A stretch of 33,172 nucleotides of DNA, taken from the NCBI GenBank assembly GCA_000310025.1, contig FN649751.1, positions 2,731,849 to 2,765,020 on the forward strand, written 5' to 3'. Source of the stretch: Ectocarpus siliculosus. Taxonomy: Eukaryota > Sar > Phaeophyceae > Ectocarpales > Ectocarpaceae. Below the pieces are notes generated by a model. It did not search any database and was not told the origin of the DNA. It saw only the letters and a program-made list of their open reading frames with translations. The stretch's first letter is position 1. Every line of letters starts with the position of its first letter. Shown here one piece after another: positions 8,782-32,391 of the stretch. The position numbers and the translations under genes were made by a program.

Positions 8782-11700
8782 ATGAGAGACATCACAATGC
8801 CTGGCGATAAGGTGGGCAACGTGGCACAGAGGATTTGATGCATCGCCGTGGTGCACCAAGCTGTGGAGGGTAAAGTTACGGATCATGTATTTCGCGCATT
8901 TTTCGTATCACCGACCTGCGGATTCTGGTTCGTTTAGAGCCGCACAACACCCTGTTTCCCGCTGCTCACCCTTGCTTGCGGCTGACGATGACAATCCAAG
9001 CAGGAAGTCAAGAAAGCGCGGCTGTGGGGCGGTCGATTCCGCACGGACACTGACCCCGTCATGGAGAAGTTCAACGACTCCCTCAGATTCGACAGGTACA
9101 ACCTTACTGGTACCTCCGTTGTTACTTGCCGTGTGATGTGATTGATCCATGCGTACCCGGGAGGGAGCATGGTGCACATCATTGCTTGTGATGCGTCCTT
9201 ACATCGGTGCAACGGCCGGCCAACTGCATCGCTGTTCATACGTGGGTGTTTCGTATTCATAGCGTTAGGTGTTATCCGCTCTTGGTCTGCCTGCCTCGTT
9301 CGCGCTCAGCATGCGTACATTTTCGTATTTTGTGTTTGGGCCCGCGGCGGCCGATCTTGACCGTTGTGCAGCATCATCCCACACTCACCTGCAACGACTC
9401 CCAACACATCCGACTCGACTGCTGTGGTTATACCTCCAACGGGTAGTCTTTCTGTGTTTGTATTTATTTTTCCTAAGCCCACCGTAAGCAGGAGGTTGCA
9501 CGGCGAAAAACAGGCAGTTTTTTTGTTTTTTTTTCCCATGTAGCAGTTTTTTTTCCCCAGGTACTGCTGTAAAGAGTTCAACACACCCTGTTCGACTTTA
9601 GGATAATGGTATACATCTCGCAGTCTTTCCGTGTAAGTGTGTGTGTATTTTTCTAAAACAATTAAGTGCTGCTGGGTTCATCCCGCGAACATCAATGCGC
9701 TTCACCCGCCGGAGTCCCATCGTCTTGCCCTCAATCGCCTTGCGGCACAGGTGCATGTGGTCTCAGGACATCGAAGGGAGCGAGGCATACGCGAAGGCCC
9801 TGCGGAAGACCGGCATCCTCACCGACAAGGAGACGGAGGAGATCTGCCAGGGGCTGGACAAGGTCCGCGCGGAGTGGGCAGCGGGGGAGTTCAAGGTCGT
9901 GGTGAGTTTTTAAACGCCCGGGGTGAAGTGTGTTTTATTCCCGTGCTGTTGTTGTTGGCGGGATTCGTTATAGTTGTTGTTGTTGTTGTTGTCTGCTTGC
10001 GCTTGAGTCGATCGTTCGTGCCGCAGAGGCTCGGTCTGATCCAGCACTGAAGAAACGACCGGAAGTGATCACGATCTAGATTTGTTTGGGGCCAGCCGAT
10101 GCCTGCAAGCCCTAACTTATACTTCATCGAGTCGATATCACCGTCATGATTTCTGTGGCGGTTTTTGCTTGTCCTTGCTTTGCGTTAGCTGCTACTGTCC
10201 GTGTGCGTTTAGCATAAAACGTCGGTGCCGCCTCCCCCCGTGCCGTAATCTCAAGGCGGGAGACGAGGACATCCACACGGCGAACGAGAGGCGACTGACC
10301 GAGGTCGCGGGGGAGGCAGGAAAGAAGCTGCACACCGGCCGCAGCCGTAACGACCAGGTACGCGTCCCCGTCCCCGATGATTGGTCAACGTGCCACCCAC
10401 CCACAGCCAGCTGCTGCTGCTGCTGCTGATGATGATGATGATATCTCTGGATATACCATGAAGCACGCGGAGAGTTCACCGACGGTCTGTCTCGATAATT
10501 GGTGTTTCTTGACTACGGTTTTGTCCTGTGGCATTCGTTCATGGGTCGTTTAAGTCTTTCTGTGATTTTGAGTGGGCGGTCACCCATTGCTGCGTTCGTG
10601 ATTTGTGAAGCGGTTGCGACCACACGGACGTCACGTGTCGGTATCCCGTTCTAAAATCCCTCAGACAAGGGCACGGAGGTGCTGCCAGTCTCAACGTTGC
10701 CCACCCCGCTCCCCTCTTCCGACGGCTGACTTATATCGCTATTCTGCGCTCTTTTGTGTGCAACCCCGGTGTTGCCGCTCTTAGTCTGACCTCACCGAAT
10801 GATCTTTTTGCCATGCCTTTCCCTCTGCGCGACATCGTCTTTTTAGGTCGTGCTGGACACGCGGCTGTGGCTGCGCGCCCAAGTGAACCAGGCGACGCAG
10901 GACATGTCTACCCTTATGCACGTCTGCTGCGAGGCGGCGGAGACTCACATCGATGTTCTCATGGCGGGGTGAGCGCTTGTTGTCGTTGTTGTTGTGCTGT
11001 GTAAATTGGGAAAACCTCCGCTGTTTGCTCGTCAAAGCGGCGACCAGGTTACTCTGCTGAATCGCTCGCGGGGTTTTGCAGCCAGTTCCGCGTAGAGAAC
11101 TTTGCCACCAATGATAAGGATCCATGATTGTGTGGACAGAACGTCTGCCTGATACAACCCCAAGTCACTACAGATGCCGAGAACTGAACGCCCTCCTCTA
11201 TCACCTCTCTTCCTTTCTCTCCATCTTTTCGTTTGGGCGTCGGATGCTACTCGTGTCGCATGTTCTTCTGGATCTGCTCTTCTTGCAGCTTCACCCACCT
11301 ACAGCCGGCCCAGCCCGTAAGGTTTAGCCACTGGCTCATGTCACACGTTGCCGCTCTCCAGCGGGATTGCCAGGTAAAAATTACATCTCGAGGTTAAGTA
11401 TCTCTTCTTGTGCCGTTCCCCCCCCACCGTTCCTCGAGGACGCGTGGCCAATACTCTAACCGCGAAGGCATGCAAAAACTCGAGTACGCCTCCCCCCCCC
11501 TAGTCAACAAGATGTCGAGATTCGTCCCATACAGGAGGAAAGGGGAGATATGTTGCGCGTAGTTGATGCCTTGGCGGAGGTTCAAAATAGCGATGTCCCC
11601 GATACAAGACGTCAACACATGTCGCCTTTCACCTCCCCTGCACACAATTGCCGCCGCCGCCACCCACCGACCGGGTCTGTTCCTTGCGTACAGCGCTTGC

Positions 11701-13517: not shown

Positions 13518-15273
13518 GTAGTTGGCGATGCTGCCGCCGAAGTGCGGGCGAACGTATAGGTGTGCGATGTGGCTGAAGACATCGCTTTTCCCACAACCAC
13601 GAAGGGTGCTGTCGAGAAACACGACGGACACGTGCAAGGAAAGCTCTCTCTCTCTCTCTCTCTCTCTCTGGGCGCGGTCTGCCGCAAACGACCCTTTCGG
13701 GCGTTGGTAGCCTCGTATGGTTGTAGAGGAATCGATATTTTAACAATCGGTCGCACACCTGTGCATGCGCCCGGATTCGTACGGTGCACCTCATTAGTGG
13801 TGCCGGGTTGCACACAAAGAGGAAGCAGGCTCCTTCCTGCCCGTCTCAGCTGCACCGCGTGAAGGTTGCTGATACACAACATGGCATGCTTTTATTTTGT
13901 TCTTCGTGAGGTGCGGTCAAGTCTCTGAAGATTCAACCGCCCCCGTCCTCCTGGCTCTGCTACCTGATTGATACTACTGTAGCGCTTTTTGGTGTGCATG
14001 CCATGTCACTCGTGGGCGCTTACGACCGTGCAAATGACCCCATGGCCACCTTGCGACCGCCCCACCCCTTACCCCTATCACGTCGTCACCAACACGACGT
14101 CACCAACCGTCACTTTTACCGCTCACAAACTACAGCAGTACACTCAAGAAACAACGAATTGTATTCTCGTGTTGATCTGTCTTTGTAGCCTTTTTCTTTT
14201 GGAATACATATATTTTTTTATTTTCAGTTTTGGGGACTTGAATAATATCATGGCAACGCCCACAACTCTACACCTTTGCTCCACACCACCATCGTCACCA
14301 CCGTAACACACAGGGGGTGCCTTTCCGCGAGACGCACCACATCTCCGGGGCGGCGGTTAAGATGTCAGAGGACCGGGGGGTGCCTCTGGACTCGCTCACC
14401 CCGGCGGACCTCCGCACCCTCCACAGCGCCTTCGAGGACGACGTCCAGGACGTCTGGAACTACGAGACCAGGTGTGTGTGTGTGTGTGTGATGGTGTGCG
14501 CGGAGCACGTGTTTTCGCGATGTGTGTGTTTGCCGAGTCCGTCCGAATTCCATCCAGCACCTTCTTTGTTGAGCTATATGGGTGTTTTGACATTGTAAGC
14601 ATCGATCCGGTTCAGCAATCCAATGTGTTAGTTTTCGAAGTACATACACCTTGAAACTTGACAGTCCTGCTTGGTGTAGTGGTCACCGTCCTTTTCATTT
14701 TTTCTGGTAGTGGAGACCTGGTGAGATATCAAAGAGTCTCATGACGCTTAACTGCTGTGTGGATAATGGATACAGACCTCCCAACTACCCCTTGCTGGCC
14801 CACTGACATGACAGCGAACCGTTCGTTCGGTCTCGTCTGACACTGCCGCGCATACAAAATACGATCTGTCTGTGTGAACACGCTTCCCCCCCATCACCCC
14901 CCCGCTAGGCTAAAAGTACTGATACCATTACAGTGCATGAATGNNNNNNNNNNNNNNNNNNNNNNNNNNNNNNNNNNNNNNNNNNNNNNNNNNNNNNNNN
15001 NNNNNNNNNNNNNNNNNNNNNNNNNNNNNNNNNNNNNNNNNNNGTACCATCACATCCCCGTATCCCCCCCTGATGATGTTGAAGGATATTTGGAAGATTT
15101 GAAGCTCATGAGTACGCGCCACCCCCCCCCCCATCTCCGACGGTGCTGTTTTGTTTTCCAGCGTGGAGCGCAAGAACTCCCCGGGTGGAACTAGCCGTAG
15201 CTCCGTGACAGCACAGATCAAGACTGTGCGGGAATACGTGGCCTCTCTACCACCTGCTTCGACTTCTGCATGA
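8782..15273 (+). CDS. ASL: Argininosuccinate lyase
   Basis: Eleven exons on the plus strand: 8782-8811 (inferred), 9004-9095, 9751-9901, 10256-10357, 10847-10968, 11289-11373, 11694-11828, 12564-12812, 13181-13375, 14314-14471 and 15162-15273. Every junction is GT-AG with fitting phases, giving 476 residues (human ASL is 464). The enzyme splits argininosuccinate into arginine and fumarate. Visible family blocks are [37 protein letters not shown], the general-acid His block [28 protein letters not shown], the signature loop [12 protein letters not shown] with the catalytic Ser, [16 protein letters not shown] and the end block [12 protein letters not shown]. The first coding exon is inferred: ATG CCT GGC GAT AAG/GTGGGC at 8797 (or the in-frame ATG at 8782) joins in phase to exon 2. 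No obvious targeting peptide fits in so short an N-terminus, so a cytosolic location is likely. The last intron holds the assembly gap. Confidence 0.96.
9973..9996. repeat. (GTT)n microsatellite
   Basis: A short run of GTT triplets in ASL intron 3. A CTG/ATG triplet run follows in intron 4 at 10411-10440. Confidence 0.85.
11426..11488 (+). mobile_element. Severely 5'-truncated LINE 3' end (copy 3)
   Basis: About 60 bp in ASL intron 6 match the 3' terminus of the full LINE copy at 29076-29137. They share CTCGAGGACGCGTGG, CTAACCGC.AAGGCATGCAAAA and the terminal GAGTACG. A C-run lies just before the fragment (11418-11425) and another just after it (from 11489, CC then T then nine C). It has no coding capacity. 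Confidence 0.75.
12451..12470. repeat. (CAGA)n microsatellite
   Basis: Four to five tandem CAGA units in ASL intron 7. Confidence 0.8.
13456..13512. repeat. (GA)n microsatellite
   Basis: A GA dinucleotide run with two small interruptions in ASL intron 9. The complementary TC run lies 130 bp downstream in the same intron. Confidence 0.95.
13644..13669. repeat. (TC)n microsatellite
   Basis: A CT/TC run of 13 units in ASL intron 9. It is complementary to the GA run at 13456-13512. Confidence 0.95.
14472..14490. repeat. (GT)n microsatellite at an exon edge
   Basis: The GT run begins exactly at the donor of ASL exon 10 (CCAG/GTGTGTGT), so several GT dinucleotides sit next to the splice site. 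Confidence 0.9.
14944..15043. other. Assembly gap, 100 N
   Basis: Exactly 100 N, a conventional gap of unknown size, inside ASL intron 10. No ASL coding sequence is missing, because exons 10 and 11 join in phase across it. Confidence 1.
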
Positions 15274-19785: not shown

Positions 19786-22700
19786 ATGAACCATCGTCGA
19801 AAAAATCGAGAGATAAACACCGCAACAGCAGTAGCGAGTCTTCTCGGCCTCGCCCTGTCGCGGTCTACGGCCGAAGCGCTGCGACCGGCTTTCGTCGGCT
19901 CTGGCAGCAATGCTCCTCATGGTGCCGCCAAGGCCGCCTCGGGTGCGGCGGGATCAGTTCAACATCATTGCTCGTTGTTGCCAGCACGACGCGGCGGTAG
20001 CATAGCACGCGCCGCCCGTCCTTACGGTAACAGAGAATATGCACGCATCTTGCGCCTACGAGCGGCTGGGTACGGCGCCGCGTTCGGACAGGGAGACGGG
20101 AAGGAAAAGGAGGACGAGGAGGAGAAGGAGGAGGAGGATGTTGCTGCCAAGAGCAAGCGATTGCTTCAGAGAGCAGCGGCAGCGGTGCGTACGGCAGACC
20201 AGGGTCAGCAAAGAGATCAAGGAGAACAAGAAGGAGAGCGCATGAGAAAACGCGACGTGTTTCGGCGTCGGCGGCGCAGAGCAAATGCGAAAATTCAAGC
20301 CGTCCCTGTCCTCGACTCTTCATGCGAACAGACCGCCGGCGGCGGTAGTGCAGAAGCTCCCATCCTCAACTTTGGTCAGAGGGGTAGGAGCCGCAACAGC
20401 AGTAGCGGTGCATGCAGCAGTGGTGCTGCTGTCGATGTGGCGGCAGCAGGGGGTGGCCACGGCAGCAGTAAAATTGAGCCGAAAAAGGACAGGAGAAGGT
20501 GGGGGCCAGCCGCCGTCGGCAGCGCCGTCTTCGTTACGCCTGTGCGTTTCGTGCGTCGAAAGGTTGACGACTGCAGATCCTTCGTCGTGAGCCGCGAGCG
20601 GGTGCACTGGGCGAGCCTGGCCATGGCGAGCTACATCTTCGCGACTTCCGTACTTCCTCGTCTGCCTGCCGGCACGTGAGTTTTGTGCGTGATAGAGGAG
20701 AAAGGATGTATCGCACGAACAAAAGCCCCCCCCCCCTGTCATGATAATATGATAGACAATAGAATGGGAGACATGTTGGAGGGGAAACAAGATCAGCGAA
20801 GGACAAGCTGGATTTAGACCAGATCGTAGTTGTGTAGACCATGTATATACGTTGAGTAAAATCATCCAAGGTAGGAAAGACGCCGGGCGTACGACATACT
20901 GTTTCTTCCTCGATATACAAAAAGCCTACGACACCGTATGGCGCAATGGATTGTGGAAAAAGATGTGGGACATCGGCATCCGGGGGAAAATGTGGAGGAT
21001 GTTGAAAAATATGACAGAATGCACAAGAAGTGCGGTGATGTTGGATGGGGAAATTTCGAAGTACGTGGATATACTCCAAGGAGTCGCACAGGGCTGTACG
21101 ATGTCACCCACTCTTTTTAAGATTTACATCAACGATTTGACAAGGGCGGTTGAAGCAGTAAGACAGGGAGTCCAAGTAGAGGGAAAGAGTGTGTCCGGAC
21201 TGATGTTTGCAGATGATTTCGTGGGGGTATCCGAAACACCAGAAGGGTTGCAAGAACAAATAGATGCGGCGGTAGGATACACCCGAAAATGGAGACTGTC
21301 GGCGAACGTAGGAAAATGCGCAGTAGTGGTCTGTAACGAAGATAAGAAAAATCCCGTAGAATTCAAATGGAAATGGGGGGAGGAAGAACTACCGGTAGTA
21401 GACAAGTAAACGTACCTGGGAGTAGAGATTTCGAAGGAGTGCTCATGGGACGCACACATAGCGAAGTTGATTGGGAAGGGTAAAGCTCAGATAGGCAAGA
21501 TGGATGAGATCCTTACGGACCCACACCTAGACACTAGGATTAAGAGGTGTATTCTCTTGAAGGTGATTGTACCTAAGCTAGAGTATGCAGGAGAGATATG
21601 GGAAGGTAACGAAAAGGCCGTCAAGCAGCTGGAAACGGTGCAGATGGCAGCGGCCAGAAAATACTAGGATGTTCAAGTACAACGAGCAACACTGTATTGA
21701 GAGCAGAATTGGGAATGTACTCTCTTAAAACAAAGAGAGACATGCAGAAGTTGAAGTGGCAGTACAAGGTAAGTAGAATGTCGGACGATAGACTACCAGC
21801 CATGGTTGACGAGGCAGCTTGGGGAAAAGCGACTCCAGGGAAGAAGGGAATCAGATGGGACAAGGTGGTAGAGAAGGTTTGGAAGGAGATAGGAGACGAG
21901 GAGGAGACGTTGGACACGGAAGGGTTCGGGGGGTTCAAGACGAAAGTCAAGGAGATGCTAGAGAGTAGGGAGGAGACAACCCTTCGGAAGAAGGTACGAA
22001 GCGAAGACCACTTGGAGATATACGGGAAGTTGAAAGAAGGGATAGGGAAGAAGAAGTACTTGGACGGCCCCATGGACTATGCGAAAAAGCTGAAATTGCA
22101 ATTTCGAGTAGGCGATCTGGACTTGCCAGAACGGAGGAAGAGGTATATCCAGCCGTAGGAGAGAGGAAGAGGAGGATAGACACACATGTCCATGTGGCAA
22201 ATCGGAGGAGAGTAGACCCCACATAGTTGGGGAGTGTGAGTTGTACAGGAAGGAAAGAGAGGATCTCGAGGAGGAAATGAGACAGAGAGGGTGTGACATG
22301 GACAAGTTTGGTAAATTAGACAACAGCGAAAAAACGATCGCGATAATTGGGGATAGATGGTGGGCACAAGAGGCCCTAGAGGACGGGGATAAGATGTGCA
22401 AGAAATTTTTATGGAGTTTGTGGCAGAAACGTAAAGAGCTCCCAAATGTTGGTGGTGTCTCTAGTAGGTGTAGGAACGGTGCTCCGTCTCGAAAGGGACG
22501 CGTGGTCAATGGTCAAATGACTACGGCAAGCAACAAATGAGTACGCCCCCCCCCCCCCTGTCAAAATCGCAACGCGTCCCCAGCACCGCGCCTCTTTCAT
22601 GGCTCTCCCCACTTCGAACGGCGTGTTTGTCATCTGCGTCGCCGAACGCACCTCAATACTCGTACCTGTCTGGAAACAGCAGTAGTCAGCGGTATCGCAA

Positions 22701-25700
22701 GCGCAGAGGAGATGGCAACCATCGGTGAGATCAAGGTCAAGCATTACATCAAGCCATGGTACCATCGAGGAGCCAAGCCCCCCTCGCAACCGGTCCTCTT
22801 TGTCGGTCTTTCGTCACCCCCACTCCCGTTCCCGACCTCCCCCCGAAAACACAATTCCCCCTGCTGTTTGTCACTTCCCGACAAGGTCAACGGGGGGCTC
22901 TACCGCTGGCAAGGGCAGGAGCTACGGCGGCTACAACTACCACGACGACGACGGGGAGGACTCCACGCTCCCCTCGCCGGAGCTCCACCCCTACGACGAC
23001 TCCCCGGCCATGACCAGCAGGCGGCGAGGCGGCTACCGGCAGCGGGCGGACTACTACCACGACGACGGAGGAGGCATCGGCACCACCATCACCCACCTCG
23101 ACGACCACGCCGAGCAGCTCTGGCACAACAGCCCGGCGATTCGAGCCGCCGCGGCGGCGGCCGCGGCAGCCGCCGCCGAAGCCGCCGGAGATTCTCTCGA
23201 CCGAGAGGCCGGCCCGTCCACCCGAGTCGGAGCACCGCTGCCGTCGCGTGGTGCGGCGGCATCTGAGCGGGAAGCTTGGGAGGAGGACCCAGGAAAAGAA
23301 GAACAACACCGAGTGCCGAGAGAACCGTTCGATGGCAGCGGCGAGAGGGAGGGCTTGTTCTCCGATGGGGACGGGTTGGATGGCGGTAGTCTCGCCGTTG
23401 ACGACAATGGTGTCGGCGTCGACCCCGATCTGCGCACGCACTTCGACTTGGGAGACCTAGAGCTTGCGGCAGAGAAAGCGCTCGATTTGTTGCGAGACAG
23501 CGGTGACATTTCCGGAGGTGATGGCGGCGACGGCGCCACTGAGCCTGAGGCTGATATAGACGAGAGCGGCCCTGAATTGCGCCCGGACCTAGAAGATCTA
23601 GAGCTCGCGGCGGAGAAGGCGCTCGACCTGTTGCGAGACGGCGGGGGAGGGGCCAGGGGTCAGGATAGCGCTGGCAGGCAAGATGATGGGGGCACTAGCG
23701 CCGCCGCCGCCGCCGCCAGCGTCACCGGTAGATCGACGAGGGTGCCCGTGCGACTCAGCGTAGGCGTAGACACGGAAAACGCCGCCGCAGTGCCCGCGCA
23801 CGGGGGTGCGGCACCCCTGTCTGCTGATAGCTCCCAACAAGATGCGAACAGGCAGCAGGAACAGAAAGAGGAGGAGGGTAAGTCCTCCTCCTCTACCGGA
23901 GTGGCGGTGGTAGGAGGCAAGGAGAAGACGAGCGGTGGGCGATTGACCCTACCGTCGCCGCCGGCGCCGGCGCCGAAAGTACCGCCGGCGCCCGCTATCG
24001 GAGGTAGCGGGGGCGGTGGCGGGACCCCGGGGCGCCACAGCACGAGCTTCGTCGCGGTGGCTGCGCGGGCCGTGAGCCCCGCCGTCTGCCGCATTGACAT
24101 GGAGAGGCTGGTGGGCACGCGCCACGACGGCTCCCCCTTCACGGACGTGGAGACGGGTCAGGGAAGCGGCCTCATCTTCAGCAGCGAGGACGGGCTGGTG
24201 CTGACGAACGCGCACGTGGTGGCCGGGGCGAGGAAGGTGAGATACAGCTACATAGTACCGGCGGCACAGCAGCTAAAATTTAGTGGGTTCGGTCGTGTAC
24301 AGGTATGGACTTGAAGGTCGATTTTTTTTCCGGTCCGCGAGAACGCACTCTCAAAATCACCGCACGCCTTCTCTTTAGATGCGTGTTGTTGGTTTAGTGC
24401 TCAAGATGGTAAGATGCTCAACATGGTAAGATAGAAGCTTTCGTTGAATTTGAACACCGGCAGAGGCAAACCGCAGCACAGCAGAGTACAAGGTGAGGAT
24501 GGGAATGGCCACTTCTGGTTGTTGTTCACGCTGTTTGTTTGTTTTTTTCGTTTTTTTCTGGTGGTAGGTGCTCCCGTGAGACACGCTGCGTTTCCAAGAA
24601 AGTGGCAGCTGCATTTCCAGCACTGCCTAAGAGCGTCGTGCCAGCAGTTCCTCCTCCTTTGTCCTCTTGAGTTCGAGGCGGAACGCTTGCATGTAGCCAG
24701 TCTCCTGGGCTTGAAACGTCGAAATGTTGGGGCACTGAATTTCTGGAACGCTTCCAGAGCGGCGGTAGAGCTATGGTGTCTTTGAGTCGACCATGCGAGC
24801 AAAGTCTGTTGTCGACTCCTTCTTGTTTGACAACGGTACATGGTGCGATTTTCACCACACGCTTGGCTCGTACGAAGAGTTGGTGGAGGTAAGGGCTCTG
24901 AGGTCTTCTTGCGTTCCGGGTGGCATGGAATTGTCTGTGTGCCGTTTGGAAGGTCGAAAACCCTCCTCTGCTACAGCTTTGCCTTGCCTTGAACCGCCCC
25001 ATTTCGCTGTTGCTGTGGCCGCCTGGTTGCCGTCTGCCGTAGGTGACCGTCACGCTGACGGACGGCCGTAAATTCCTCGCCGAGGTGAAGGGAAGCGACG
25101 CGCTGAGCGACCTCGCCGTGCTAAAGATCGACAGGGACGCGAGCTTGGGCCAGACCCCGCTACCGGAGGTCACGTTGGGCGACTCGCAGGAACTACAGGT
25201 GGGGCGGGGTGTACTCATGTACTCATAGCCGTGCTTGCCGTAGCCGTTAGACCTTTGGAACTCGAGGTGAGGGTCGTATTTTTTGTGCTGAGGTCGCTCT
25301 TTTCGTGACGGAAAGGGGAGGGAGGGAGGGAGGTGCTCTCTCTTCTAGGGCCATGATTTCCCCCCCTCGCACGTCTGTGTTGCAGCCAATGCGTGTCTTC
25401 TTTCTGGTCACACACGGGTTTTGTGCCGTCGCCATGGCGTGGAGGTGAGCGAGTCGGGCAAAGAAATGCATTTTTTTGTTGTGCATATTCCGGAAGGCTC
25501 GTTCGTCACGATAAAAACGAAAACGGCTTGTACACGCATGATCCTGCTGCTTTTGGCAGGTTGGTGACTGGGTGATCGCCGTCGGCAACCCGGTCGGGCT
25601 CGACAGCACCGTCACCTTGGGGATCGTTTCGAGGTGAGTTAAGGAGGGCCAAATTTTTCGTGTCCCCCTTTCTTTTTCTTCGCTGCTCTTCCCATCTACA

Positions 25701-28700
25701 GCAGTCGTGAGCCCTCTCTTTTGTGCGGGAATTTGCGAACTTAGCCGGCTACCCACGCCGTTAATCCTGCCCTATAGTCAAGAGAGCCCGCTACCCATTT
25801 TTTTTTTTTCCTGTCACTTCAATCAGCGCTCGCAGCAAAAAGGGTATAAGCTCCAACCCGTGGTCATACATCTCTACACCGTTCATTTTATTGTCTCGCG
25901 TTTTCACCGGTCTATGTAGTAGGGCCGGACTCACACGCAAGGCTTCCTCCGCCAGGCACCCCTCTTGAGAAGCGTACATTATTCTTCTGCACCTTTTTAT
26001 GGAATTGTTTGTCCAACTTGACACGAGGGACATACCATCAGCCCTTATTCTCCTCGCCAGTCGAGTTTCCTGTTTAGACGCACCCCCGAACTACGGCTTG
26101 AATTCTTGGGAAGCAACGAGCTGATGGTGTTGAACGGTAGGAGGGAAAGCGATAAGCCGGAGTTCACCAGGCAGAGGGCAGTTTGCAATGAATACTCGAT
26201 CCTCGACTACATCCTGGTAGATAGGGGGAGCACACAGGTCCCGGAGCTGCACGTAAGTGCGATAGATATAGGTTCGACCGACCATTTCCTCATATGGGCA
26301 AACATCGGCCGATCTAGAAAGACGGAGAGTAAGAAAAAGAGGAGAGTGTTCCGGTGGAAAGTAGAGCGTTTGGGAGACGAGGGGACACGCAATGAATTCC
26401 AGAAGGGATTGGCTGGTAGTGTAGAACCCTTCAGGAAACTGCTGAGAAGCGTCGAAGACGGAAAGGTAGACGCACAAGCAGCAGGGGACAGCGTGATTGA
26501 AGGATGGGAGTCCATAGTGAACACAACGGCAGAGAGAGTAGTGGGAAAGAAGGTGGCACGATGTGGGGTATCGGTTAAGTGGTGGGATGACGAGCTGAAA
26601 GAAGAAATAGGGGAACGTAGAGAAGTCTTCAAGCAGTACCTGGGTGAGGGGTCTGAGGAGGGTTGGGAAAAGTACAGGGCCAAGAGGAAACAGGTGAAGG
26701 GACTAGTGAAAAAGAAGAAAAAGTGCATTTGGGACGAAGTAGTGCACAAGGCCAACGGAGGCCTGGAGGGGAACGTCAAGCAGATGTGGGAAGGGATTAG
26801 TGGGATGGTAAAAAAGACCGCGCAAGGGGGGGATACAGGGGTAGCAACATTGCGAGGTGTGAACGGTGGACTAGTCAGCAGTGGGAAGGGAAAAAGGGAA
26901 GTTCTAGCAGGACACTACAAGAGACTTGGAGTGCCTCCGGAGAATGAAGCTTTTGACCAAGCGTTTAAGAAGGAGGTGGACGCATGGGCCCAGAAAGAAG
27001 AAGAGACATCAAAGGCAGACGTTGGGAACGTAGAACTAGAAAAGGATTTCACTGACGACGAGGTTGAGGCGTGTGTGAACAAGCTGCAGTGCCACAAAGC
27101 AGCAGGGGCGGATGGGATAGTCAACGAGTTCATGAAGTTTGGGGGGAAGGGGATGATCCAGCTGATGGTACTGCTGTACAACTGGGTGTGGAAAAACGAG
27201 TATGCGCCAAGTAGATGGCGGGAAGGAGTGGTTGTGAACTTGTTTAAGAAAGGAGACAAGACTGACCCAGGAAACTACAGGGGTATCACACTGTTGAACA
27301 CAGTAGGAAAAGTGTTTTGTAAGCTGCTGAACGATAGGATAGTGGGAGTATTGGAGAAGAAACGTAGCATTAGTGAGGGCCAGGCAGGTTTCCGACAGAA
27401 GAGGGGGTGCGTAGCCCACGCATTCACGGTAGGGAGAATCATCCAAGGTAGAAAGAGGGCGGGAAAGCGGACGTACTGCTTCTTGCTGGACGTGAAAAAG
27501 GCATACGATACCGTATGGAGAAATGAGCTGTGGAAACAATTATCCAAGTACGGGATCAGGGGGAAAATGTGGAGAGTGCTGAAGAAGATGACAGAGTGTA
27601 CGAAAAGCGCGGTCATGCTAGACGGAGAACTTTCTAAATTCTTCGACATTGAGCAAGGGGTCCCACAAGGTTGCACGCTGTCCCCAACATTGTTCCAGGT
27701 GTTCATCAACGATCTGTTGGAAGTCGTAGAGGCAGTCCGGAAGGGAGTAAAAGTAGGGGACACGGAAACGTTGGTGTCAGGAATGCTGTTTGCGGATGAT
27801 TTTGCTGGTATGTCGGACACCCCTGAGGGACTGCAACTGCAAATTGACGCGGCGAAGAAGTTTACTGATAAGTGGAGATTGTCTGCCAACGTTACGAAGA
27901 GTGCCGTCATGGTATGCAACGAGGGCAAGGAGGAACCAGTAGAACATAGATGGAAGTGGGGGATCGAGGAGATTGCAGTAGTGGACCAGTACACATACCT
28001 CGGAGTAGAGATCGCAAAAGATTGCTCGTGGAATGCACACATGTCCAAGGTAGCGGAAAAGGGCAAAGCACGAGCAGGGAAGCTGCACCCAATACTCGCA
28101 AACCGGCACCTTGATACACGCATCAAATTGACGGTGTTGAAGAGCGTAATCGTACCGCCGCTAGAGTACGCCGGAGAAGTATGGGAAGGAAATAAGAAGG
28201 TAGTGAAAGAACTCGAGGCGGCGCAGATGAAAGCAGCGAAAATCATCCTAGGATGCTCCAAGTGCACAAGTAATGCAGCAGTCAGGGCAGAATTGGGGAT
28301 CCAATCCCTACGGTCGGGAAGAGACGTAAGGAAGCTGACATGGCAGTATCGCATGTGCGGGATGAGAGAGGAGAGGTTGCCGAGAATAGTATGGGAGGCG
28401 AAGTGGGCAAACAAAAAGAGGGGTAGACAACCCACGGAATGGGTCAAGGTTGTAGAGGACGTATGGAAGGGATTGGACATCGACGAAGATGAAACGCTGG
28501 AAACGGAGGGTCTACAGGGGTTCAAGAAGAAGATATCTGTTGCTTGTGCCGACAGAGAAGAACAGAATCTAAGGAAAGAATCCAAGGATAAGGAGGGTCT
28601 AGAAGTGTACGGAATGTTGAAAGAAGGAATAGGGTTCAAGGATTACCTACATGGACCAATGGATGCAGGGACAAAGCTTAAGGTCAAATTCAGGACCGGA

Positions 28701-31128
28701 GACATAGGCCTTCGCGAACGTCGACGAAGACATAGGACGGTAGACGACGAAGACGATAAGTTCAAATGCGATTGCGGCTTCGAATGCGAAGACAGTGTTC
28801 ATGTAGTCGCGGAATGTCCGTGGTACGAAAAGGAGAGGGAAGTGTACATGAGTGAGCTGGGAAGAATACAAGTGACGTACAGGGAGATGTTTGAGGCATG
28901 GAATAGAGAGGAGAGGACGGTAGCGGTACTGGGGAGTAGAAAGTGGTTTGAAAAGGCGGGAAGGGGACATCGGTAGGATAAGACAAACTAGGGAAGACAT
29001 TTTTGAGCCACCTTTGGCAAAGTAGGAAGGAACGATTGGCCATCGGTGATCGGTCCTGTGGGAACAATGCTCCGTCCTCTCGAGGACGCGTGGTCAATGG
29101 TCTAACCGCTAAGGCATGCAAAACATAAGAGAGTACGCCCCCGAACTACGGCCTGGCCTCCTTCCTACTTATGAAGGTCCGACTTGTCATGGTTTTCGGG
29201 TGGCCGTCAGTTCTTTTTCGTACAACTTTTTCGTTCCCTCTTTTCCGCACACAAGAATGTATCGAGTTTTGGGATTGTTGCTCCCGGGTTCCGTTCCTGT
29301 CATCCACCTGCACGGTTTCACCCATGTGAGCAATGCATGGAAGCCATTGAACAACGGTACCCGCTCTTGATTCATTCCTCTGGAAAATCACACAGAGACA
29401 GTTTTGGAATATGCATAGAAACGCCTGCATTATGTTGCGCCGGACAAGTGCGAGGGACTGAGCCTTGGGCGTGAGAGCACGGTGTATTTGATGATTTTTG
29501 TTTTTGGAATAGTTTAAAAGCTTTATGAGAGTCTCTGGTGTAGCTGTACGTACGTCCTACTCGACGTCACCTGTCCAACTGTTCCTCCGCTTGCTCTGCG
29601 GATCTTTCCGTGCGGTCCGCGCGCACCCGTATGTCACTGCTGCATATATATCTACTGCAACCGCCCAGATGGTTGTTTGTCGTCTCACGCCCGGGGGAGA
29701 TTCCCCGGTAGCGTGTCAGTGCTGTACCACGTCAGCACGCCAGCACAGACTGTGTGTCTGTGTCACCGCCTAGTCAGGTCGGTTCTGCGTCATCAGGGCT
29801 GCGGAGTGGTGTGCTGTGCACACCCCTCTTCTCCCCTCCTCTGTCACTCCTCTTCTTCCTTCCCTCTCATCCCAGAGACCGCACCGTTCGCTCTTCCTAG
29901 ATAACTACTCCTGTCCCGCAAGTCTGTGCACTAGCGGCTCCCCACCGTCGCTCCGGAAGTCTCCTCCGGTCACACAGTCGAGAGAAGGTTCAACCCCTTC
30001 CGTCGGTCTGAGATAGGTCACCCTTATTTATTTTAAAAATATTTAAAAAGCTTTTTTTTTATAAGGACTTTACTACTGCCGTCAGATTGGGGACAAGCAA
30101 TCAAAACCAACATGTGCACGACGCATGTGCCCCGTTCACGTGCTCCAACCGCCAGGCGTGTACGAAAACTCAACCCACGGTCGCCTTTTGGGCAAATCGT
30201 ATTGGGTACTGCTCGAACGCCCCCCACCACCCCGCTCTCTCGCTCCGTCGGTGTCGCCCCGCGTGTTAACGTCAACAACCCGACCCGTTTGTGTGTTCGT
30301 TCCTCGCTGGCGGCACAGCATGAAACGCTCGAGCGAGGAGGTGGGGTTCCCGGACCGTAAGGTGAACTTCATCCAGACGGATGCTGCCATCAACCCGGGC
30401 AACAGGTGTGCGGCTCTCTTCCTGGGAGGCAAGCAGCAGTACAATGGTCCCTGTTTAAGGCCTGTCACCGTAGTAGGACGGTCCCTGTACGAGGACGATC
30501 CCTGTAAACGGCGGTTCCCTGTGTAAGGCCGGTCCCTGTATATGGCGGTCCCGGTTTAATACAGGTCCCTGTATAAGGCCGCATAGAGTAGCGAGGGATT
30601 TGGCAGGCCTTTTAACCCGGCATTGCTACATACTAGAGTGTAGGACAAGCTCGAATATAGTAGCCCACGTGTGTCACGCGACTGCACTGCCCTTGGAACA
30701 GGGCGACCGGCCATGTTCATGCGGCCTCGTCGAAGACAAGACCACAACAACAAACAGGAAATGCAGTGAAATTGTTTGCCAGCTCCATATTTGAGTCTTG
30801 CCTTTCTCAAGCGGTTTAGGACGGCGATTTTTCTTCCGTGTTTCAAATGAAGCGACCAATCAAAAGAGAGCGAACGAGAGATGGGGTCACCAATATGCAT
30901 GTAGGTCAAAACTAAGCTTGCATGTCGTTCATAAGTGTGGACATCTACACCCGCCTAAACTCACCTTGATGCGATCGGTCGATCAATCCCCAGCGGCGGA
31001 CCCCTCGTGAACGAGTTCGGCGAGGTGGTGGGCGTGAACACGGCCGTAAGGGCAAACACGGAGGGCATCGGGTTCGCCATTCCCATCAACAAGGTGAGTG
31101 TTGGTGTATGTCCGACCCCCCGTTGTCG

Positions 31129-31168
<40 letters not shown>

Positions 31169-32204
31169 GATTTTTATTGTTGTCTTTGTTGTCTTCGTTG
31201 TTGTTGTTGTTGTTGTTGTTGGTATTGTCGTTGTTGTTGTTGTCGTCGTTGTTGTTGTTGCTGTTGTCGTTGGCTTGCCGCTCTTCAAACCTTGCCCTCT
31301 ACGGAATGTCCTCACTCCTTCCAAGGCTGTTTCTTCGCCAGCAGCGGTAGGATGTCTCTAATCTCCGTCGCGGCCATTGTACGTCCTGTTTGTTCCTCAG
31401 GCGAAGGCCATCATGTACGACTTGGCGAAAGGAAACCGGATCGAGTACGCCTACATCGGGATGACCATGACAACCATCACGCCCGAATTCGCGCTCCAGA
31501 ACAATCGTGACCCCAACTCCCACCAGCTTATCCCCGAGGTGAGAGGGTCGCCATCCTATGCGCATGTCACGGGTTGTTGCTCACCCCATGTTTTATCGTT
31601 TGCCGTTGGATTGACCGTCTGCGTTATGCCGCAATTATGAAGACGATAAAGATCACTACGGTAGCAGAGTAAGCAGACTGTAACAGGTAGTCTCATGCTG
31701 TCCCCCTGCTTACGATCAGGAATTTCGGTGTCTCCGATTTTGGCTTTTTTTCATTTTTTTTGTTTCGTCTTTGTTTTTTGTGAGTGTTGCGTTGTTTAAC
31801 GTCTCGTTTGAGATTTTTTTTTTTTTGGTACTCAAGAGTGGGTGCGACACCATTCTCTTCCACTCCGTCCTATTCTTTTACTTCTTCACACCCGGCAGCC
31901 CTTCTATTGTAGTTGAACTAGAATAGCGTGGTATGTTCCAAACCAACTGCACCGCGCAAGCCCTCGACAAAACCATGATCTTCTTGGCCACACCACGGAG
32001 TTTTGACAAACCTTGAAAAAAAAAAAACAGGTGAGCGGTGCCATCATCATGAAGGTCTTGCCGGGCACCCCTGCGGCCGACGCTGGCCTCAGGCGCCACG
32101 ACGTGGTGATCGAGATGCGAGGAAGGGCCATCCGCACGGCGGACGAGGCGAAGCAGGTCGTTGACGAGAGCAGCGTGGGCGACGTCCTCATCCTTAAGGT
32201 CTGA
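19786..32204 (+). CDS. HTRA: Large HtrA/Deg-type serine protease with PDZ domain and long N-terminal extension
   Basis: Proposed exons: 19786-20675, 22886-24236, 25043-25198, 25560-25633, 30319-30405, 30994-31093, 31401-31538 and 32031-32204. Junctions are GT-AG, phases fit, total 989 residues. Exon 1 encodes a hydrophobic N-terminus ([21 protein letters not shown]), a charged low-complexity region and a possible membrane segment near its end ([15 protein letters not shown]). It is linked only by phase; an unspliced reading would give a separate 297-codon gene. Exon 2 is mostly disordered (Asp/Gly/Ala-rich) and ends in the protease domain. The triad is H740 (LTNAHVV), D770 ([10 protein letters not shown]) and S853 (INPGN-S-GGP). 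IPIN(K) closes the protease domain, and a PDZ domain follows ([22 protein letters not shown]). The codon of S853 is split by intron 5. The protein stops right after DVLILKV, where HtrA proteins usually have one more strand. A signal-type N-terminus suggests an organelle, perhaps the plastid, but no ASAF motif is present. Confidence 0.93.
20726..20741. repeat. Target-site duplication, 5' copy (LINE copy 2)
   Basis: Eleven C followed by TGTCA. The same 16 bases occur at 22548-22563 after the 3' end of the element. Confidence 0.85.
20742..22547 (+). mobile_element. Decayed 5'-truncated LINE in HtrA intron 1 (copy 2)
   Basis: The insertion begins inside the reverse transcriptase region and ends with ATGAGTACG followed by a C-run. 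It lies between identical 16 bp duplications (20726-20741 and 22548-22563; the exact edge within the C-run is ambiguous). Reading frames follow the intact copy at 26098, with many differences at protein level. The element is in the sense direction relative to HtrA. Its age is suggested by a stop codon and frameshifts. Confidence 0.92.
20761..22440 (+). pseudogene. Reverse transcriptase remnant of LINE copy 2
   Basis: Motif A ([15 protein letters not shown]), motif B ([13 protein letters not shown]) and motif C (LMFADDFVG) are readable in 20852-21409. At 21407 the frame meets TAA where the intact copy has a Tyr codon (VVDQYTYLG against VDK-stop-TYLG). The frame then continues to 21667 ([23 protein letters not shown]), shifts after AAARK, and resumes in 21697-22158 ([10 protein letters not shown]-like, [12 protein letters not shown]). 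Further breaks precede the degraded C-terminus ([16 protein letters not shown] in 22210-22260, corresponding to the Cys/His end). It cannot encode a working enzyme. Confidence 0.9.
22548..22563. repeat. Target-site duplication, 3' copy (LINE copy 2)
   Basis: Matches 20726-20741 over 16 bases (C-run plus TGTCA). The total C-run here is 13. Confidence 0.85.
26083..26097. repeat. Target-site duplication, 5' copy (LINE copy 1)
   Basis: CCCCCGAACTACGGC, repeated without mismatch at 29138-29152. Confidence 0.9.
26106..28976 (+). CDS. LINE polyprotein fragment: endonuclease tail, reverse transcriptase, C-terminal Cys/His motif
   Basis: An open frame with no stop or shift. The listed first codon is TTG and not a true start; the frame is open from the insertion junction, so the protein lacks its natural N-terminus. 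Residues 1-60 are the end of an APE-type endonuclease (LDYILVD, then [12 protein letters not shown] with the conserved S/T-D-H). A Lys-rich linker follows. RT blocks are [32 protein letters not shown], motif [11 protein letters not shown] with catalytic D462, motif [14 protein letters not shown] (about residue 517), motif C FADD with D564 and D565, [10 protein letters not shown], and [14 protein letters not shown]. The C-terminus has a Cys/His cluster (C890, C894, H899, C904) ending in ECP, as in many LINE proteins. RT catalytic residues are all present, but without the endonuclease active site it should not mobilise by the usual route alone. The clade cannot be fixed from motifs. Confidence 0.95.
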   Translation: MGSNELMVLNGRRESDKPEFTRQRAVCNEYSILDYILVDRGSTQVPELHVSAIDIGSTDHFLIWANIGRSRKTESKKKRRVFRWKVERLGDEGTRNEFQKGLAGSVEPFRKLLRSVEDGKVDAQAAGDSVIEGWESIVNTTAERVVGKKVARCGVSVKWWDDELKEEIGERREVFKQYLGEGSEEGWEKYRAKRKQVKGLVKKKKKCIWDEVVHKANGGLEGNVKQMWEGISGMVKKTAQGGDTGVATLRGVNGGLVSSGKGKREVLAGHYKRLGVPPENEAFDQAFKKEVDAWAQKEEETSKADVGNVELEKDFTDDEVEACVNKLQCHKAAGADGIVNEFMKFGGKGMIQLMVLLYNWVWKNEYAPSRWREGVVVNLFKKGDKTDPGNYRGITLLNTVGKVFCKLLNDRIVGVLEKKRSISEGQAGFRQKRGCVAHAFTVGRIIQGRKRAGKRTYCFLLDVKKAYDTVWRNELWKQLSKYGIRGKMWRVLKKMTECTKSAVMLDGELSKFFDIEQGVPQGCTLSPTLFQVFINDLLEVVEAVRKGVKVGDTETLVSGMLFADDFAGMSDTPEGLQLQIDAAKKFTDKWRLSANVTKSAVMVCNEGKEEPVEHRWKWGIEEIAVVDQYTYLGVEIAKDCSWNAHMSKVAEKGKARAGKLHPILANRHLDTRIKLTVLKSVIVPPLEYAGEVWEGNKKVVKELEAAQMKAAKIILGCSKCTSNAAVRAELGIQSLRSGRDVRKLTWQYRMCGMREERLPRIVWEAKWANKKRGRQPTEWVKVVEDVWKGLDIDEDETLETEGLQGFKKKISVACADREEQNLRKESKDKEGLEVYGMLKEGIGFKDYLHGPMDAGTKLKVKFRTGDIGLRERRRRHRTVDDEDDKFKCDCGFECEDSVHVVAECPWYEKEREVYMSELGRIQVTYREMFEAWNREERTVAVLGSRKWFEKAGRGHR
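29074..29087 (+). other. Stem-loop near the LINE 3' end (copy 1)
   Basis: GTCCT, loop CTCG, AGGAC: a 5 bp stem with a 4-base loop, 50 bases from the 3' terminus. Equivalent hairpins are at 22486-22499 (GTCTC, GAAA, GGGAC) and, on the minus strand, at 32358-32345 (GTCCT, CCCG, AGGAC). Confidence 0.6.
29138..29152. repeat. Target-site duplication, 3' copy (LINE copy 1)
   Basis: CCCCCGAACTACGGC, identical to 26083-26097. Confidence 0.9.
29513..30053. mobile_element. Possible non-coding insertion of about 515 bp with near-identical flanks
   Basis: TTTAAAAGCTTT at 29513-29524 is matched by TTTAAAAAGCTTT at 30041-30053, with one extra A. The interior is GC- and pyrimidine-rich, unlike the AT-rich flanks, contains CATATATATC near 29644 and has no coding capacity. 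It could be a solo LTR or a short non-autonomous element. The flanks are A/T-rich, so a chance match is possible. Confidence 0.25.
30443..30582. repeat. Degenerate minisatellite, unit about 17 bp
   Basis: Seven units of GGTCCCTGTNTAAGGCC type run head to tail, for example GGTCCCTGTTTAAGGCC, GGTCCCTGTACGAGGAC, GGTTCCCTGTGTAAGGCC and GGTCCCTGTATAAGGCC. It lies in HtrA intron 5, just after the exon that ends in the split catalytic Ser codon. Confidence 0.75.
31122..31273. repeat. (GTT)n microsatellite
   Basis: About 150 bp of GTT triplets with scattered substitutions, 28 bp after the donor of HtrA exon 6. It creates Cys-, Val- or Thr-rich open frames that are not genes. Confidence 0.95.
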
Positions 32205-32296
32205 CGACGGGGTTCAAGGGGAAGGTCATTCATTACTTGCCCTGGTCGTGAACGGGGTATAGTGGGGGCTGAGAACGAGGGGAAGAGGGGGGGGGG

Positions 32297-32391
32297 CGTA
32301 CTCTCATGCTTTGCATTCCTTTGCGGTTAGACCATTGACCACGCGTCCTCGGGAGGACGGAGCATTGTTCCCGCAGGACCAATCACCGATG
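32297..32391 (-). mobile_element. Severely 5'-truncated LINE 3' end, minus strand (copy 4)
   Basis: About 95 bp match the reverse complement of 29042-29137: ATCGGTGAT.GGTCCTG, GGGAACAATGCTCCGTCCT, GAGGACGCGTGGTCAATGGT and CTAACCGC, ending GAGAGTACG. A G-run of ten (32287-32296, C on the element strand) abuts the 3' end. A GGGGGCGGGGG stretch abuts the other end. It lies 90 bp past the HtrA stop codon. Confidence 0.9.

Follow-up and report, generated by a model that had tools for sequence, protein, structure and literature searches.

We analysed a 33,172-nucleotide stretch of the Ectocarpus siliculosus genome (assembly GCA_000310025.1, contig FN649751.1, positions 2,731,849 to 2,765,020 of the forward strand), hereafter the window, which carries four copies of a family of long interspersed nuclear elements (LINEs), each with its 3′ end placed against a run of Cs. 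The family of the copy at 26098-29137 is termed subfamily A and that of the copy at 20742-22545 subfamily B. A fifth family relative in the window is a fragment of a non-autonomous element of ~670 bp, termed N1, which ends against CCCCGCCCC. Individual copies and loci elsewhere in the genome carry L numbers. The copies in the window and their target-site duplications are the following:

11426..11488, plus strand: 63-nt 5′-truncated tail copy, with a C-run at 11418-11425 upstream and a C-tract at 11489-11500 at its 3′ end
20726..20741, plus strand: 5′ target-site duplication copy, C11TGTCA, from sequence comparison
20742..22545, plus strand: 5′-truncated LINE of subfamily B; an interrupted frame covers the reverse transcriptase and the C-terminal part, and the copy ends in GAGTACG
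22546..22563, plus strand: 3′ target-site duplication copy, C13TGTCA, from sequence comparison
25210..25257, minus strand: N1 3′-tail fragment with a doubled GAGTACA end, abutting CCCCGCCCC (25209-25201, minus strand)
26083..26097, plus strand: 5′ target-site duplication copy, CCCCCGAACTACGGC, identical to the 3′ copy
26098..29137, plus strand: 5′-truncated LINE of subfamily A with the end of the endonuclease, reverse transcriptase and a 3′ tail ending in GAGTACG
29064..29137, plus strand: conserved 3′ tail, with a predicted fold closed by pairing of TGCTC with the terminal GAGTA (prediction only, z -0.49)
29138..29152, plus strand: 3′ target-site duplication copy, CCCCCGAACTACGGC, identical to the 5′ copy
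32297..32391, minus strand: 95-nt 5′-truncated inverted copy, 3′ end against C10 (plus-strand G-run 32287-32296)

All four LINE copies that a preliminary description of this DNA had placed at C-runs are present, with small adjustments to their limits: the 3′ boundary of the subfamily B copy is 22545, since 22547 includes two Cs of the target, and the similarity within the 63-nt copy itself spans 11433-11477. The duplications of both long copies start with the C-run, as had been claimed, and differ by two Cs around the subfamily B copy. The two short copies are C-rich on both sides, and a clean duplication was not found for either. By itself, GAGTACG is weakly enriched in the window (nine occurrences against a mean of 2.9 in shuffles, with 1 of 100 shuffles reaching nine); the real pattern is the family tail followed by a C-run, not GAGTACG alone. 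At 15110-15132, GAGTACG is followed by five letters and then by C11, and a family-similarity scan of the window reported no other match there.

Genome-wide counts were made in the assembly of 189.5 Mb and 492 contigs. The 21-mer CATGCAAAACATAAGAGTACG, which is the common 3′ end of subfamily A, occurs exactly 304 times, and its reversed control does not occur at all; the subfamily A copy in the window has an extra AG and hence lies outside these exact matches. The next letter is not C at 11 of the 304 ends (A at eight, T at three, G at none; ends followed by N, if any, would count together with C). The exact 3′ end of subfamily B occurs 215 times, with a letter other than C following in seven (G in four, T in three). 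Among the first 100 subfamily A copies in listing order (L021-L120), which were fetched with their flanks, base +1 is C in 97 and A in two, and all 100 have C at base +3. In 95 of them a C-run of at least five lies within 25 nt 3′ of the end, compared with 8.0% of 361 control windows further downstream. C-runs also flank the 3′ ends of 19 of the 20 subfamily B copies that were fetched. For N1, 20 of the first 21 places were fetched, one being left out that already lies inside L023, and 19 of the 20 have a C-run of at least five; the base that follows GAGTAC in these copies is A in 13, C in five, and G and T in one each. Exact N1 tails number 1641 genome-wide. The forward strand holds 876 of them, and in 768 of these five Cs follow within two letters (the count was restricted to this strand; reverse-strand places appear more than once per copy).

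A tail search free of end selection used the 17-mer that precedes the end, which occurs at 382 places genome-wide. From the first 100 of these listed, 26 are not directly followed by AGTACG, and 20 of the 26 were fetched. A C-run of at least four lies within 30 nt in 19 of these 20 copies, and one of at least five in 18; two of them, L171 and L185, end in GAGTACG after additional letters. An A-run of at least eight within 30 nt of the 3′ end was found in none of 160 copies (100 + 20 + 20 + 20), and the family thus lacks the poly-A or A-rich tail of LINE-1-type elements. The preliminary description had noted the absence of poly-A and inferred a preference for C/G tracts from the copies in the window; the former extends to these 160 copies and the latter to the genome at large. 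A tRNA-like CCA end, which a tail closing in a stem followed by G or A and then by C might suggest, was considered for subfamily A and rejected because base +3 is C in every one of the 100 copies and never A.

At the 3′ ends of L171, L185 and L019, and in the window at 29128-29137 and 25210-25224, the final letters recur as short repeats (AGTAAGAGTACGAGTACG, AGAGAGTACG, GAGTACATGAGTACA), which gives the impression that reverse transcription had started anew on the end. L013 has a second 10-nt TAAGAGTACG, perhaps an extremely truncated copy, inside the same C-tract 3′ of its end.

The upstream flanks indicate what the target looked like before insertion. The 5′ junction falls within the ~1 kb fetched for 70 of 99 placed subfamily A copies, and 67 of these were usable for flank counts (L097, which has no end match, and L028, L045 and L101, which have a gap or are too short, were left out of the subfamily A flank analyses). 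A C-run of at least five is present in the 25 nt before the 5′ junction in 46 of the 67 copies, compared with 3.7% of 811 control windows, and a G-run of at least five is present there in 0 of 67, compared with 4.2% of control windows. Of the 20 subfamily B copies fetched, 15 had a usable 5′ flank, and 13 of these show an upstream C-run. An exact duplication match of at least eight letters, including at least four that are not C, was detected in 11 of 79 copies (seven from a separate genome sample and the two window copies among them), compared with a mean of 0.40 in mismatched pairs. This matching and the counts of C-runs and G-runs in flanks are free of choice, unlike the 26 duplication pairs discussed below, which were picked by eye. 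Clear duplications flank L067 (C6GC5TTGG on both sides), L094 (C6AC5AA on both sides), L048, L130, L132, L141, L160, L162 and L176.

N1 provides paralogous empty sites. The element (L158:150-820, minus strand, and other loci) starts with two or three tandem units of ~67 bp, with C-runs of ~8 between them that are LINE landing sites. The repeat unit contains AAGCCG-C8-GGTGTTTGCC, and in L001, L024 and L096 a LINE sits at the C-run of such a unit, which is found, partly diverged, on both sides of it. The assembly holds 184 uninterrupted exact units that keep the C8 site; as paralogous empty sites they speak for a pre-existing run. Presence of the C-run in the target before insertion is well supported by the 5′ flanks, the duplications and these empty sites, and it is equally well supported that insertion occurs almost only at C-runs and in one orientation. 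One class of target, present before insertion, serves most copies, which is the behaviour of a target-selective LINE.

We propose, with a probability of about 0.8, that this non-long-terminal-repeat (non-LTR) family, comprising the autonomous LINE, the second LINE subfamily and N1, inserts into C/G homopolymer tracts by target-primed reverse transcription. The family machinery would nick the G-rich strand where the G-run ends or close to that point (5′-GGGGG^N-3′), and the 3′ end of this run would serve as primer for complementary DNA synthesis, with the 3′-terminal part of the element RNA (GAGTACG in the LINEs, mostly GAGTACA in N1) as template. N1 presumably uses the LINE proteins. Repair would then duplicate ~10-20 bp beginning with the C-run, and a short C-tract on the RNA may pair with the G-run, which would account for extra Cs at 3′ junctions. 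Because the new copy would be flanked by a C-run on both sides, the landing site would survive and could be hit again in the same orientation. Adjacent family sequence, within ~45 nt, is found on the 3′ side in 18 of 100 flanks and on the 5′ side in 11 of 63 (27 copies, with L024 and L096 affected on both sides), and its orientation is the same as that of the insertion in 29 of 29 flanks.

Several observations weigh against this proposal. Control windows 350-500 nt upstream match the family in 7 of 49 cases, all in the same orientation, and the 29 concordant orientations are therefore not independent events; some of the 29 flanks are simply a single N1 hosting a LINE. L166, the sole exception among the 20 tail-selected copies, abuts just CC. 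Sixteen of the 67 subfamily A copies have no C-run of at least four in the 25 nt that precede their 5′ end, and nine of these 16 have none even in 80 nt; such copies are compatible with a C tail borne by the RNA. Furthermore, comparisons between single C-runs are weak because these runs change in length.

The preliminary description also held that the Cs belong to the target and are not a synthesized tail. The first part is well supported, but the second holds only in part: some 3′ sides have Cs that are absent from the 5′ copy. Among duplication pairs, the count rises from 4 to 12 in L077, from 5 to 13 in L109 and from 7 to 13 in L106, and L030 also has extra 3′ Cs. A C-rich block is present only on the 3′ side in L048 and L110 (CCCCT), in L096 (CCCCA), and in L107 and L162, and the target of L042 starts with just CC, yet six Cs lie on its 3′ side. 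For subfamily A copies with an upstream run, the 3′ run is longer in 30 of 53, equal in 4 and shorter in 19 (p 0.008; median 10 versus 7); for subfamily B it is longer in 7 of 13, equal in 2 and shorter in 4 (p 0.43). In the 26 pairs picked by eye, the 3′ tract is longer in 16, equal in 5 and shorter in 5 when extra blocks are counted (p 0.008), and longer in 13, equal in 5 and shorter in 8 when the pure run alone is counted (p 0.23), with only the last run scored in impure tracts (L107, L161). Given the Cs and blocks that the 5′ copies lack, part of the 3′ Cs seem to derive from the RNA end or from slippage. Three or four Cs and one A or T precede the target run at the 3′ junctions of L144, L107, L162, L048, L110, L096 and L001; this recurrent block is suggestive only, because impure tracts are common.

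An RNA with a poly-C tail, analogous to the poly-A tail of LINE-1, would place a synthesized C-run at an unselected target. The longer 3′ runs of subfamily A, the extra Cs and C-rich blocks just listed and the 16 copies without an upstream run all fit such a tail. We nevertheless consider it improbable: the C-run is also found 5′ of most copies, the interrupted tracts of L067 and L094 are identical on both sides, N1 units without an insertion already have C8, and the duplications of L134 and L136 take in the G that precedes the run. This duplicated G also bears on a different account, in which the endonuclease cuts widely and only the 3′ ends of G-runs can prime on a terminal C-tract of the RNA. 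The extra 3′ Cs would fit Cs on the RNA, as would the invariant C at base +3 in subfamily A, and the site bias of LINE-1 may likewise stem from either endonuclease cleavage or the priming step (PMC12809410). However, the primer in L134 and L136 would end in ...GGGC, both Gs are kept and the insertion nevertheless lies at a C-run; this favours a protein that recognizes the tract itself, in addition to pairing at the final primer base. These two junctions are explicable without Cs on the RNA, and the equal runs of L067, L094 and the 26098 copy require none either. Pairing as the sole source of specificity is possible but doubtful. We regard as unlikely a self-perpetuating specificity, whereby read-through transcripts carry the flanking C-run, pair with the G-run primer and steer the next insertion to a C-run; if it operated, the flank would hand on the choice of target, which would then not be encoded by the endonuclease alone. 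No sign that related copies inherit tract interruptions (CCCCT, CCCT, CCCG, CCCCA) was seen among 68 copies (p 0.51-0.80 for mean distance). The test has low power, with two to four copies per interruption class, and its result speaks mildly against such self-perpetuation.

Two further explanations were weighed. N stretches follow some C-runs (for example in L005, L031, L045 and L072), as might be expected if the runs were artefacts of assembly or sequencing at gaps or low-quality stretches, but 90 of 100 3′ flanks contain fewer than 20 N per 100 bases, duplications match beyond the run and the strand bias is complete, making an artefact extremely improbable. We attach just as little weight to the spread of a few C-run-flanked copies by segmental duplication. 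The flanks of L076 and L175 are near-identical and probably arose in that way; likeness above 75% is, however, limited to six pairs among the 90 usable of 100 3′ flanks, each of them in N1 sequence, and 62 different 5′ truncation points are found in 70 copies. Most insertions are therefore independent events.

The longest copies reveal the architecture of the autonomous LINE. L121 and L122 have 4,683 bp in common, reaching to the 3′ end; for L124 the common part is 4,365 bp and runs to where its fetched sequence stops. L122 and L124 match slightly further upstream until a gap, so the element is at least 4.7 kb long. L124 contains a 1,284-residue frame that is still open where the fetched sequence stops and that includes an apurinic-type endonuclease (Exo_endo_phos, PF03372, E 7e-11, residues 195-425) upstream of, and in the same frame as, a reverse transcriptase (RVT_1, E 1.3e-32; E 3.4e-32 in the window copy 26098-29137). 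The nearest solved sequences to this frame are those of LINE-1 ORF2p (E 3e-28). Reverse transcriptase, an upstream endonuclease, 5′ truncation and target-site duplications of variable length together identify an apurinic-endonuclease non-LTR retrotransposon. A run of 11 Gs is present in the 5′ region of two long copies (L122:1130-1140 and L124:1723-1733).

Alignment indicates that A, B and N1 have related 3′ tails. In the A and B tails, the predicted fold pairs TGCTC with the terminal GAGTA, a pairing that costs 2.2 kcal/mol in N1, and single-fold z values of the tails are -0.49 (window 29064-29137), -2.89 and -0.39. N1 shares both the 3′ tail of the LINEs and their kind of insertion site, as does a LINE-dependent short interspersed nuclear element (SINE).

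Translations at 24155-32205 read as exons of an HtrA-like serine protease whose C-terminal part is PDZ-like; the first of them matches Trypsin_2 with an E of 0.0014, below Pfam's cut-off. The LINE at 26098-29137 sits in an intron of this HtrA-like gene, between ~25637 and ~30317.

Simple sequence is also the target of the Waldo LINE, which inserts at (AC)n, a dinucleotide repeat rather than a C-run. Togen, placed near the NeSL clade, inserts at (TG)n, again a dinucleotide repeat (PMC4640811). SART1 and TRAS1 are telomere-specific LINEs whose target changes when the endonuclease domain is swapped; they resemble the present family in having an apurinic-type endonuclease and a repeat-sequence target, but they insert at (TTAGG)n and the RNA of SART1 carries a poly-A tail, whereas here the target is a mononucleotide run (PMC7265360). 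LINE-1, which inserts at 5′-TTTT^AA and has a poly-A tail, likewise combines an apurinic-type endonuclease with a reverse transcriptase, and for both it is proposed that a homopolymer strand primes on an RNA tail complementary to it (PMC12809410); the present family differs in targeting a G/C rather than a T/A tract and in having no 3′ A-run. The tail shared by the LINEs and N1 recalls stringent-type LINE/SINE pairs with a common 3′ stem-loop (PMC4176376, PMC5135761), although the terminal structure here is predicted only and is disfavoured in N1. In Ectocarpus sp. 7, an abundant non-autonomous element of ~600 bp, RTEX-N1, shares its 3′ end with the autonomous RTE-X LINEs RTEX-1 and RTEX-2 (PMC12477816). 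Our ~670-bp element, which shares its tail with two LINE subfamilies, is likened to this system by description only; the resemblance suggests that the LINE may be an RTE-X element. Insertion at C-runs is not mentioned in the parts of that account that were consulted, and among the titles and abstracts that searches of the open literature listed (Repbase and subscription papers being outside the search) we found no report of LINEs targeting C-runs. The elements are best classed as a family of target-selective LINEs of the apurinic type, with a C/G homopolymer target that we have not found in print.

The pattern holds well beyond the window, genome-wide and in two LINE subfamilies and N1. Most target-specific families reported belong to early-branched, Tx1 and R1 groups (PMC4640811), and the range of such groups would widen if the LINE is indeed RTE-X. 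Whether the target preference of LINE-1 originates in endonuclease cleavage or in priming is an open question (PMC12809410). Where human LINE-1 uses T/A-rich sites, this family offers a natural equivalent at G/C tracts, and with hundreds of copies it makes the question of cleavage versus pairing testable; at some junctions the two contributions seem to come apart (L134 and L136 on one side, L077 and L109 on the other). A site that survives each insertion would, moreover, furnish the genome with self-renewing landing sites, and N1 alone has left 1641 exact tails.

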